A stretch of DNA of 64,000 nt from Trichosporon coremiiforme (lineage: Eukaryota > Basidiomycota > Tremellomycetes > Trichosporonales > Trichosporonaceae): NCBI GenBank assembly GCA_039545355.1, contig BCJJ01000021.1, positions 310,001 through 374,000 of the forward strand, written 5' to 3'. A program made the translations under genes and the position numbers. Below are positions 3,809 through 56,128 of this stretch, in pieces. The notes beneath the pieces were generated by a model, which made no database searches, was not told the DNA's origin, and saw only the letters and a list, made by a program, of their open reading frames with translations. Numbering within the stretch: the first letter of the stretch is position 1; the number at the start of each line of letters is the position of its first letter.

Positions 3809-4267
3809 CTCTGGCCGGTGAGTGATGAGAGCATGGGCTCTAATTAGGGAGATCGTTGCTTATGTAGCGACGCTAAGTACATCAGACATAGCGGCACATG
3901 CAAAGCCCAGGATGCGAGACGCCTCTTTGGGTCCGCCTAACAATCGGCCACTGGTGTCAAATCGAGACAGAAGGCGGACTAGAGGGCTAGAACCAACAGA
4001 GCCATCATTGTCACATCACCTCTCAATAACACCCCACGTCCTCCGCACCCACATGAGCTGGCTCTAAGTGAACGACTTGTCACCGTCACCGTGGGCTAAT
4101 CACGCCTTCGGTCCCAAGTACTGACGAGGTCGGACGAAAATGGCACCACACGACTGCCACTCACCTCCACCACCACCGGCCCACGGTTCTTTACCCATCT
4201 CAACTCACCACCAACAGCTTCAGACAACGCCTCTACAAGCATGCAACTCTTCCAAACGGTCCAAAAA
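3809..4267. other. intergenic, no gene recognised
   Basis: Presumed promoter of the minus-strand proline-rich gene and 3' flank of the first tRNA-Arg. The ORF at 3822-4067 has no family features. Confidence 0.4.
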
Positions 4268-4372
4268 GGTCACGACGGGGATCGAACCCGCAATCTCCTG
4301 ATGTACCGGAACTCCGAGATAACCTCGGAGACTCAGTCGTAGTCAGACGCCTTGCCATTGGGCCACGCGACC
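4267..4372 (-). tRNA. tRNA-Arg(ACG) with 34-nt intron
   Basis: Minus-strand gene starting at 4372. The 7-bp acceptor stem GGTCGCG/CGTGACC has one G-U pair, the anticodon is ACG, and the T loop is TTCGATC. The discriminator is at 4267, followed by a T run that would terminate Pol III. The intron is 34 nt, three times longer than in the three sister genes of this window, and it contains a perfect 7-bp hairpin (CTCCGAG/CTCGGAG). A solo LTR begins 53 bp upstream, at 4426. Confidence 0.9.
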
Positions 4373-5098: not shown

Positions 5099-5181
5099 AG
5101 GTCACGACGGGGATCGAACCCGCAATCTCCTGATGAACTAACAAATCGTAGTCAGACGCCTTGCCATTGGGCCACGCGACC
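5099..5181 (-). tRNA. tRNA-Arg(ACG) with 11-nt intron
   Basis: Same mature sequence as the gene at 4267-4372, with an 11-nt intron (TTTGTTAGTTC) between positions 37 and 38. The 5' end is at 5181, and a 5-T run follows the 3' end. A solo LTR starts at 5235, exactly 53 bp upstream. Confidence 0.9.
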
Positions 5182-5768: not shown

Positions 5769-5851
5769 AGGTCACGACGGGGATCGAACCCGCAATCTCC
5801 TGATAACTCCGAAAATCGTAGTCAGACGCCTTGCCATTGGGCCACGCGACC
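5769..5851 (-). tRNA. tRNA-Arg(ACG) with 11-nt intron
   Basis: Third copy of the same tRNA in 1.6 kb, all on the minus strand. The intron is TTTTCGGAGTT. The mature sequence is identical to its sisters and a T run follows. Unlike the copies at 4267, 5099 and 22368, no LTR is found at the expected position near 5905. Confidence 0.9.
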
Positions 5852-22367: not shown

Positions 22368-22450
22368 AGGTCACGACGGGGATCGAACCCGCAATCTCCT
22401 GATAAACTAGCAAATCGTAGTCAGACGCCTTGCCATTGGGCCACGCGACC
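22368..22450 (-). tRNA. tRNA-Arg(ACG) with 11-nt intron
   Basis: Fourth copy of the tRNA found at 4267, 5099 and 5769. Anticodon ACG, intron TTTGCTAGTTT, 5' end at 22450, T run after the 3' end. A solo LTR begins at 22506, 55 bp upstream, in the orientation opposite to the LTRs next to the other copies. Confidence 0.9.
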
Positions 22451-40695: not shown

Positions 40696-41542
40696 AGACG
40701 TTCAGCGATTTGGGCAAGAAGCGTGCGACCATGTAACACGATGGCGAACGGACTAGACAACTTTCCTTAGACTGCATGTATACCAACAAGCCGCCAACTA
40801 GAACAGACCTCTCACGAACCCGACCCCTGACTGAAACTACTGATATAAACATTCTACTTTTCTACTGGCATCCTTCTAAAGATATCCCATCACACGGCTC
40901 CCTAATGTTCTCGGCAACTCCCGACGGCTGGTACCGCGCTGGATTCGGCACCTCGGTGACCTCGTATGCCTCGACCCTCGCAGGTTACATCATCGCCCCG
41001 ACGAAGCCAATGTCGCTAGCATGATCGCGTTGGAATCAGGCCCTGGCGCGCTTCGCGGGCTTCTCGGCCGAACCGGGGGCCTCACGCTTGTTGGAAGCCG
41101 AGACGTCCTCGCCGCTGGAACGGTGTGAGCGAATCAAATCTCGTGGATGGGATGAAGCGAGGAATGTGAGGGACACGCAAGAGGTCTACCGGGGTGAGTG
41201 GACGTGATAAGGAACTCCAGATAACCGCGCCGAGAACGTCAGTGGGCGTCACGCCCCAGCGCAGAGCGCTCTTGCCCGTCATCGGCCGAACTGATCGCGC
41301 AATCTCGATCTACGATAGCAGAAAGGCGCGCCGCTCCACACGTCGGTGGCTGGCCGGGCACGTCACGTCACTGTCCGCAGTGGTACGTGTTTAACCCCTC
41401 GAGAATAAAAGATGCACAGATTCCATCTAAGGTGTGGTCTAATGAATGAATTTTGGATGGGGTGGTGGTGTTGCAGATGCGCGCTCACCGCTCCTACCTC
41501 CTAGAACAGAGCAGAGGCAGCGGCGCAGGCACAGGGAGACGC
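40696..41542. other. intergenic with small ORFs of uncertain status
   Basis: Between GET1 and the 3' end of the peroxiredoxin gene. A plus-strand ORF at 40776-41024 ends in a protein-like stretch (GFGTSVTSYASTLAGYI). A minus-strand frame around 41040-41280 ends KPAKRARA. Neither could be assigned or given a convincing full gene model. Confidence 0.3.
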
Positions 41543-42794
41543 TTACTGCTTGGAGAAGTACTTCTTAGCGTCGGCAGTGTCGATGGTGTCGGCACCCTCC
41601 TCCCAGTTGGCCGGGCAGACCTCACCGTGCTCGTCGGTGAACTGGAAGGCCCTGACGACACGGATGGTCTCCTCGACGGAACGGCCGACGGGGAGGTCGT
41701 GGACGTGCATGGCACGGAGGGTACCCTTGGGGTCGATGAAGAAGGTGCCACGGAGAGTGATACCCTCCTCCTCGAGGAGAACACCGTAGGCCTTCGAGAC
41801 CGAGTGGTTGCGGTCAGAGAGGAGGCCGAGGTTGAGGTTAGGGCCAAGACCACCCTCCTTGCGGGGGGTCTGCGACCAGGCGAGGTGGGTGAACTCGGAG
41901 TCGGTCGAGAAGGCAATGACCTCGGTGTTGATGGCCTTGAACTGCTCGAGGGCGTTGTTGAAGGCGAGGATCTCAGTGGGGCAGACGACTGGGGGTTAGC
42001 TTAAAGCTGTCGGCTTCTGAAGCTGAGAGACACGAATCGGCGTCCTTCGGGCGCCGCTGCACAATCGCAGCATTCGCAACTGCTCCCTAACGCTTTCTAC
42101 CCTCCCAGCATGCTACCAGAGCAAGGCTCCAGCAGTAAGCTTCGCAGAGCAAGCGAAAACAAGAGCGAGTATGGCACTGTTGACGGGAGGCAGACGGACA
42201 TGCCCAAAAGTCCGCTTTTCTACCCATCTCGATACTTACAGGCTGCTTGTTAGCTTTTTGAAACGTTCTGAGAGCTTACTGTAGTCCATCGGGTACGAAA
42301 AGAGAACGACCCACTTGCCCTCGTAGTCGGAGAGCTTGACGTCCTTGAACTCGCCGTTCTGGACGAGGGTGCCCTGGAAGGCGCTGGACGTTAGCGGTGT
42401 TGTTGGGGAGAGGGAAGGGGCGGCGACACGGGGGCGACGAAGAGCAAGTGACGGACAGCGACGCGCGCAAGCGAGCGGAGGTCTCGAGCTGGCCAGCCAG
42501 CAAGAGTCCAGGAGACCGTTGCCTGACAACAGCGCCGGAAAGTCCGCGGACCAGCTCTGCTGGCAACGAGTGCTACGCTTTCGCGCACCCAACGCTACCC
42601 TACACAGTCCGAGGGCCATCATAACAGAGCAGTGGACTCTACGCTGATGTCGCAGAGGCTTATCAGACTTGCGGGCAAAGTCGCAGCTGAGTCACCCAGC
42701 CTGTTGTCGCCTGTGTCACCTGTTCTGTCGCATGCACTGTATGCTGTGTCGAGACCATTGTTGCGTGCACTCACGGAGCGGGCTTCTGGATCAT
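41543..42794 (-). CDS. TSA1: 2-Cys peroxiredoxin (Tsa1/Prx type), 190 aa, 4 exons including a 3-nt microexon
   Basis: Proposed exons are complement(41543..41988, 42240..42242, 42280..42383, 42775..42794). The protein reads [20 protein letters not shown]...[21 protein letters not shown]. The catalytic PxxxTxxC motif is complete (Pro38, Thr42, peroxidatic Cys45) only if the 3-nt exon CCT is used; it supplies two bases of Thr42 and one of Phe43. The resolving Cys167 lies in HGEVCPANW, and the C-terminal YF...SKQ is of the sensitive type. Other conserved blocks: [47 protein letters not shown]. The enzyme reduces H2O2 and organic peroxides in the cytosol using thioredoxin, and some members act as chaperones. 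The length is typical (190-200). Confidence 0.9.
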
Positions 42795-43503
42795 GGCAGA
42801 GGGGGCCGACATTTTGTTTTGATGTAGATTGTGTGTTGTCAAAAAAAGACGGTGGGGGAAGGACGGAAAACAAAAAGCCCTTATGTACGATCGGGGATGC
42901 CATGCATGGTGCAGTCACTGGTACGGGCGCAGTACGGGCAGTCGGCAAGCATCGGAAAAGCCCCCGAAAATGACCACTTGCCGCTGCAGCTCGCGCGCGT
43001 TGCCCAGAATTGCCAGCATGTCAACAATAACGTCACTTGTGCTTCGGATTGGTTGATTGGTTGCCCGGGCTTGCGGACTTGCGCCGTACGCCTGTTGGGC
43101 GAGCGTCCAGCTTAGCTCGGCGAATACAAACGTGCCTTTCCAACATGAAGTGGACATGTGTTCTCTCAGCTGGACGATCTGCATGCGCAGGCAGTCCAGT
43201 CAGCCAAGTAGTGAGACGATGAAAGCCGCAATCAGCCAGATGCTGAGTCAGCACGCGAGTTGCGCCGAGTTGCATGAGATCTCCCGTGGCGATCGGACTC
43301 AGGCTGACCGTCGAGTCCGCAACCTGGTTTGCTTACTAAGCCAGCGAGTCCAAGTCAACCTCATCGGCTTCGACTTTGTTCCATCTTTTCGGACGCCCTC
43401 GGCCGCCTCGCATCACTTGCGACACGTGCTTGACACGTGTTGGGGTACTGAGCGAGCGGCCGTGGCCTGGCTGTTCCCTTTGCAATCAGCAATCCTGTCT
43501 AAC
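42795..43503. promoter_or_regulatory. promoter side of the peroxiredoxin gene
   Basis: No gene is recognised. A short A-run and GC-rich segments are present, and no clear stress element was identified by eye. Confidence 0.35.
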
Positions 43504-43613
43504 CTCTCTATAGCTCAGTTGGTAGAGCGTCGGACTGTAATTGGTTATCCAAATCCTTCCACTCGATAGAGTGAGAAATCCGCAGGTCCTGTGTTCGACT
43601 CACAGTGGAGAGA
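43504..43613 (+). tRNA. tRNA-Tyr(GTA) with 37-nt intron
   Basis: Acceptor CTCTCTA/TGGAGAG pairs over 7 bp with one wobble, discriminator A at 43613. D loop AGTTGGTA, anticodon GTA at 43537-43539, canonical intron 43541-43577 after position 37, T arm with TTCGACT loop, and a TTTT terminator from 43620. Confidence 0.9.
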
Positions 43614-56019: not shown

Positions 56020-56128
56020 TCTCTCCACTGTGAGTCGAACACAGGACCTGCGGATTTCTCACCCATTTGGGTGGGAGGATGGTTTAACCAATTACAGTCC
56101 GACGCTCTACCAACTGAGCTATAGAGAG
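56020..56128 (-). tRNA. tRNA-Tyr(GTA) with 36-nt intron
   Basis: Minus-strand gene with the same mature sequence as 43504-43613: acceptor CTCTCTA/TGGAGAG, discriminator A at 56020, anticodon GTA, intron 56056-56091, T5 terminator at 56012-56016. The two introns differ almost entirely in sequence. No LTR is found about 54 bp upstream. Confidence 0.9.

Follow-up and report, generated by a model that had tools for sequence, protein, structure and literature searches.

The peroxiredoxin gene and a candidate 3-nt exon

Within the window, by which we mean the whole 64,000-nt stretch of Trichosporon coremiiforme DNA analysed here, a part of contig C21, positions 42812-41036 on the minus strand hold a gene for a typical 2-Cys peroxiredoxin of the Tsa1 type. 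Pfam searches detected an AhpC-TSA domain (133.3 bits) and a 1-cysPrx_C domain (46.2 bits) in the protein, both above their cut-offs, and this pair of domains assigns it to the Prx1/Tsa1 type. Typical 2-Cys peroxiredoxins carry the peroxidatic Cys in a PxxxTxxC motif and the resolving Cys in VCPA(N/G)W; the latter was found here as VCPANW, and the former, as PMDYTFVC, arises only when the microexon is included. Relatives with a solved structure include Prx4, Prx2 and yeast TSA1 (3sbc), and the top-scoring named proteins among the matches listed came from Cutaneotrichosporon oleaginosum (86% identity), Apiotrichum porosum (83%), Cryptotrichosporon argae (83%) and Vanrija albida (81%). The gene is laid out as follows, with splice borders marked by a slash.

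42775..42812, minus strand: exon 1, with the ATG at 42812
42384..42774, minus strand: intron 1, 391 nt, GTGAGT..CTAACGTCCAG (392 nt in the second copy)
42280..42383, minus strand: exon 2, 3' end TAC A, phase 1
42243..42279, minus strand: intron 2, 37 nt, GTAAGC..CTAAC..CAG, written GTAAGC..CTAACAAGCAG (38 nt in the second copy)
42240..42242, minus strand: candidate microexon 3, CCT; A/CCT/TC gives ACC TTC, Thr48 Phe49 (CTT, giving ACT TTC, in the second copy, L001)
41989..42239, minus strand: intron 3, 251 nt, GTAAGT..CTAAC..CAG, written GTAAGT..CTAACCCCCAG (291 nt in the second copy)
41547..41988, minus strand: exon 4, starting TC GTC TGC CCC and running to the last donor, CA/GTAAGC
41115..41546, minus strand: intron 4, 432 nt (510 nt in the second copy); the short form ends at an in-frame stop within its donor
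41036..41114, minus strand: exon 5, which gives the 221-aa form its tail HGEDVSASNKREAPGSAEKPAKRARA (similar basic tails in homologues P0001-P0004)

An earlier note on this DNA had placed a CCT exon after a 37-nt intron, and its sequence and coordinates were confirmed. Translation likewise reproduced the two products the note had given, YPMDYIVCPTE from direct joining of the flanking exons and YPMDYTFVCPTE with the microexon. The catalytic Thr does come from the microexon, as claimed, since A/CCT/TC reads into Thr48-Phe49-Val50-Cys51 and the homologue motif is TFVC; the proposed numbering, Thr42 and Cys45, was wrong, the ATG at 42812 giving Thr48 and Cys51. With the microexon included the loop reads Y47-T48-F49-V50-C51, whilst direct joining gives Y-I-V-C, a product that keeps the frame but loses one residue in length and lacks the Thr, just as had been predicted. 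CCT falls within the size range taken for microexons (internal exons of ~3-30 nt) and has its own acceptor and donor, CAG/CCT/GTAAGT, following CTAAC.

Among the best 120 of 7,978 homologue matches, 119 carried TFVC at this site and 119 carried DFTFV ahead of CPTE, the exception to the latter being P0017, and no skip-form protein was found among these or among the best 120 of 7,987 matches. P0017, from a JGI contig, is an open frame that apparently starts within an intron and reads RQFVCPTE. It implies an acceptor, CAG/TTC, that would be displaced by one base from the border seen in the window, so the exon border probably differs among some relatives, and the exon of this relative could be 2 nt long or absent.

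Elsewhere in the window, Rfam detected six tRNA genes (4267-4372, 5099-5181, 5769-5851, 22368-22450, 43504-43613 and 56020-56128), three of which were 106-110 nt long and perhaps contain introns. ARAGORN, run in bacterial mode, returned three tRNA genes with ambiguous anticodons.

The second copy and the chance of a spurious motif

A diverged second copy of the peroxiredoxin gene (L001) lies on contig C13 of the same genome (42.0 Mb, 134 contigs), where introns of 38 and 291 nt flank the exon CTT, with phases matching those of the window copy. The change from CCT to CTT turns ACC into ACT and is synonymous, keeping the Thr, and the 196-aa proteins of the two copies differ at two residues. In the DNA-level comparison of the microexon locus, which comprises the window copy and this one second copy, the six splice signals were identical at 28 of 28 positions and the other aligned intron positions at 175 of 259. 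This conservation counts against assembly error and against chance, and the diverged copy is the strongest evidence for a real microexon. Loci present in two copies, about 80-90% identical at the DNA level, are numerous in the genome (C13, C21 and other contigs), which together with the genome size suggests that the genome is hybrid or allodiploid. On contigs C5 and C17, one pair (L013/L021) was 100% identical across 3,031 bases.

To gauge chance, the 291-nt stretch was dinucleotide-shuffled 20,000 times. A bare AG-NNN-GT was present in 16,100 of the shuffles and a Thr-Phe-coding AG-CNT-GT in 3,016, and the bare motif therefore carries little weight. The stricter CAG-CNT-GTRAGT occurred in 10 shuffles and CTAAC-N(2-7)-AG-NNN-GTAAGT in none; in the 42-Mb genome the last pattern was found three times, against three for its reversed control, and two of its three matches are the two copies of the peroxiredoxin gene. 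Only the motif with all its surrounding signals, together with the second copy, makes the case; the short motif does not. It is very improbable that the motif arose by chance or assembly error and that the gene is a pseudogene or truly joins the flanking exons directly: the commonness of the bare motif in shuffles and the parity of the full pattern with its control speak for such a reading, but it is opposed by the lack of the full motif from every shuffle, by the persistence of the 3-nt exon, with a synonymous change, in the diverged copy on contig C13 and by a remaining reading frame that is intact in both copies.

Two other ways of reading the junction were rejected. Use of the AAG four bases past the branch site would give a 6-nt exon, CAGCCT, and the loop Y-T-A-F-V-C. 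The window copy does contain the tandem AAG-CAG, but the AAG is not conserved in the second copy, where the sequence is GAACAG with no AG at the tandem position, and the extra loop residue is absent from the best 120 listed homologues; we consider the probability of this form close to negligible. A stwintron is a nested pair of introns, the inner one splitting a splice signal of the outer, with no coding sequence between them; it was discarded because both introns here are complete and CCT is needed in the mRNA for Thr-Phe.

Other 3-nt exons in the genome

Fifteen candidate pairs were aligned, comprising TSA1, a pair from locus-to-locus comparison (L035/L039) and 13 pairs of look-alike strings chosen by eye from the first places listed of 103 pattern matches. 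Four of the fifteen were verified by reading frame and protein family, namely the peroxiredoxin pair and the following three.

C2:1127003 and C4:920689 (L035/L039): cation-efflux transporter; exon TGT, G/TGT/TC, giving CVDAVFDPFAN; kept in both copies
C18:151945 and C19:126083 (L085/L086): cyclophilin; exon TGT, CG/TGT/C, giving FHRVIPQFMCQGGD; supplies the Val of FHRVIPQFM
C18:658532 and C19:636093 (L092/L093): low-molecular-weight (LMW) protein-tyrosine phosphatase; GG/CAA/, then a 6-nt exon CATTTG; loop VCLGNICRSP

Like that of the peroxiredoxin, the cation-efflux exon is in phase 1 on both sides, whilst the active-site loop of the phosphatase spans exon 1, the 3-nt CAA, the 6-nt CATTTG and the next exon. 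At each of the four verified exons one flanking intron is 36-44 nt long. Pfam scores, taken from one copy of each gene, were higher with the 3-nt exon than without it for AhpC-TSA (133.3 against 123.1 bits), Cation_efflux (30.5 against 22.2), Pro_isomerase (57.8 against 47.5) and LMWPc (30.9 against 19.2), and without the exon both Cation_efflux and LMWPc fell under the family cut-off.

Six further pairs (L061/L077, L068/L080, L087/L088, L073/L089, L082/L091 and L063/L096) were alike but proved on reading of the alignments to be ordinary coding, exon-start or UTR sequence. The other five had identities below 60% (L070/L085, 0.41; L071/L090, 0.56; L094/L095, 0.36; L097/L098, 0.57; L074/L099, 0.30) and were set aside on identity alone, which does not show them to be false. 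Genome-wide, loosened 3-nt patterns gave no excess over reversed controls (49 versus 46, 103 versus 103 and 25 versus 34), which, like the shifted border of P0017, weighs against the microexon reading. With the alignments covering 15 pairs and not the 25-match pattern, the four verified exons are a minimum count.

Patterns for exons of 1-2 and 4-6 nt did exceed their reversed controls (104 versus 58 and 152 versus 83, respectively), but none of eight aligned pairs was verified; seven were read as ordinary exon borders or coding sequence and the eighth, the HSF-like L112/L113, is a candidate. A 1-15 nt pattern was rarer than its control (26 versus 70). One gene pair, L008/L011 (C1:674685 and C3:1902227), has a 7-nt and a 12-nt exon in succession, each of them kept in both copies, the 7-nt exon being verified by frame in each; judged by eye, the gene looks transporter-like. 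L017/L026 is another candidate pair from the 1-15 nt pattern, which also picked up L013/L021, the pair of identical sequence. Proof lies in the pair-by-pair protein checks, and pattern counts alone prove nothing.

Splicing of the exon and comparison with known systems

We consider it highly probable that CCT is a real coding microexon, 3 nt long, in this typical 2-Cys peroxiredoxin gene, and is present in essentially all productive mRNAs. The basis is the exon-intron layout, the reading frame, conservation in the second copy, the restored family motif and the three further gene pairs. In this intron-dense genome we infer that splicing follows intron definition, with sites paired over the intron and the 37-nt intron recognised as one unit. 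An acceptor complex and a U1-bound donor would hardly fit together on a 3-nt exon, so the two introns would be removed sequentially, in either order, since both orders leave all signals intact. Among Arabidopsis constitutive microexons, 50 of 69 are described as having at least one late-spliced flanking intron, and plant constitutive microexons encoding conserved residues are known from the same source (PMC8831610).

Were splicing of the peroxiredoxin transcript to fail, a retained intron would be likelier than a skipped exon, and the likely alternative would therefore be less enzyme rather than enzyme without the Thr. Retention of the long intron (251 or 291 nt) introduces an early stop in both copies, as does retention of the 37-nt intron in the window copy; retention of the 38-nt intron in the second copy shifts the frame over a long stretch, with no early stop. 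Inefficient splicing should mainly lower the amount of enzyme.

The earlier note had further proposed that inclusion of the microexon acts as an on/off switch, with inclusion yielding active enzyme and regulated skipping a dead subunit without the Thr. Skipping would indeed preserve the frame in both copies and cost only the Thr (a net loss of one residue), and yeast Tsa1 is reported to be impaired by loss of the Thr side-chain hydroxyl, hydroperoxide reduction falling by several orders of magnitude in T44V and to a smaller extent in T44A (PMC5024103). By analogy with these mutants, the shortened-loop product without the Thr should be nearly inactive. A microexon of Trichoderma Xlr2 has also been reported as switch-like, but the passage describing it states that reads linking the outer exons were not seen (PMC11121469). 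No positive evidence for a switch emerged here: no feature of regulated skipping was found in the peroxiredoxin sequence, the splice signals are strong and conserved in both copies, the best 120 listed homologues include no skip-form protein, and 3-nt exons occur in three unrelated gene pairs of the same genome, consistent with a general feature of how its genes are built. We regard a regulated switch as very unlikely. There is similarly little probability that a condition-dependent, dead Tsa1 subunit without the Thr joins decamers and tunes peroxide signalling, with the single-codon exons of the LMW phosphatase and cyclophilin in the same splicing-controlled layer.

The last intron is a likelier site of alternative processing than the constitutively spliced microexon that we favour. 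The donor of intron 4 (41546-41115, minus strand), CAG TAA GC, carries an in-frame stop: if the intron is kept, the TAA at 41545-41543 closes a 196-aa protein ending in ..YFSKQ, and if it is spliced, a 221-aa form results with the 26-residue tail, which includes a bipartite basic stretch, KREAPGSAEKPAKRAR. This stretch is kept in both copies and is similar in homologues P0001, P0002 and P0004, whilst the tail of P0003 is basic with different spacing; ..SKQ is also the end of P0005 and P0006 and of the partial open frames P0017 and P0121-P0124. From its general pattern we take the basic stretch to be a putative nuclear localisation signal, and a dual-form, perhaps nuclear, Tsa1 is possible.

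A catalytic residue placed on a single-codon exon in a fungal gene is thus not isolated, as four gene pairs of this genome carry 3-nt exons and two of the four exons (peroxiredoxin and LMW phosphatase) sit in active-site loops. Gene finders and RNA-seq aligners easily miss exons of 3 nt, and proteins of such fungi may therefore be annotated without key residues; as a set, these exons also offer a test of the spliceosome on an exon too small for two complexes. Among the papers listed by searches of an open-licence collection, none was seen to describe a basidiomycete exon of 3 nt. Romfo et al. (2000) reportedly studied a cgs2 microexon in fission yeast, an intron-definition fungus, and could not induce skipping; that exon is from an ascomycete and is reportedly longer and experimentally tested, whereas the peroxiredoxin exon is from a basidiomycete and 3 nt long.

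A '3-bp exon 2' from Ganoderma was rejected as a precedent because the 3 bp are described as part of a longer exon (PMC8379801). The 3-bp microexon of Drosophila homothorax matches ours in size but is described as alternatively spliced out of a longer exon, whereas here the exon is separate and has its own signals (PMC7392893). Short internal exons in intron-rich basidiomycete genes are shared with Phanerochaete P450 genes, with a shortest reported exon of 6 bp (PMC1184071), and with bglA genes, at 5 bp (PMC9142197), though in these other families the exons exceed 3 nt. The Trichoderma Xlr2 microexon is, as here, fungal and encodes essential residues, but it is 20 nt long and condition-dependent, whilst the 3-nt peroxiredoxin exon showed no sign of regulation in its sequence (PMC11121469). 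Plant ultra-short constitutive microexons span 1-15 nt, with those of APC11 and VPS55 at 1 nt; they are verified from RNA, whereas the exon described here is fungal and was read from DNA, yet in both cases, as far as the plant account extends, a tiny conserved coding exon is required for the right protein and is often overlooked by annotation (PMC8831610).
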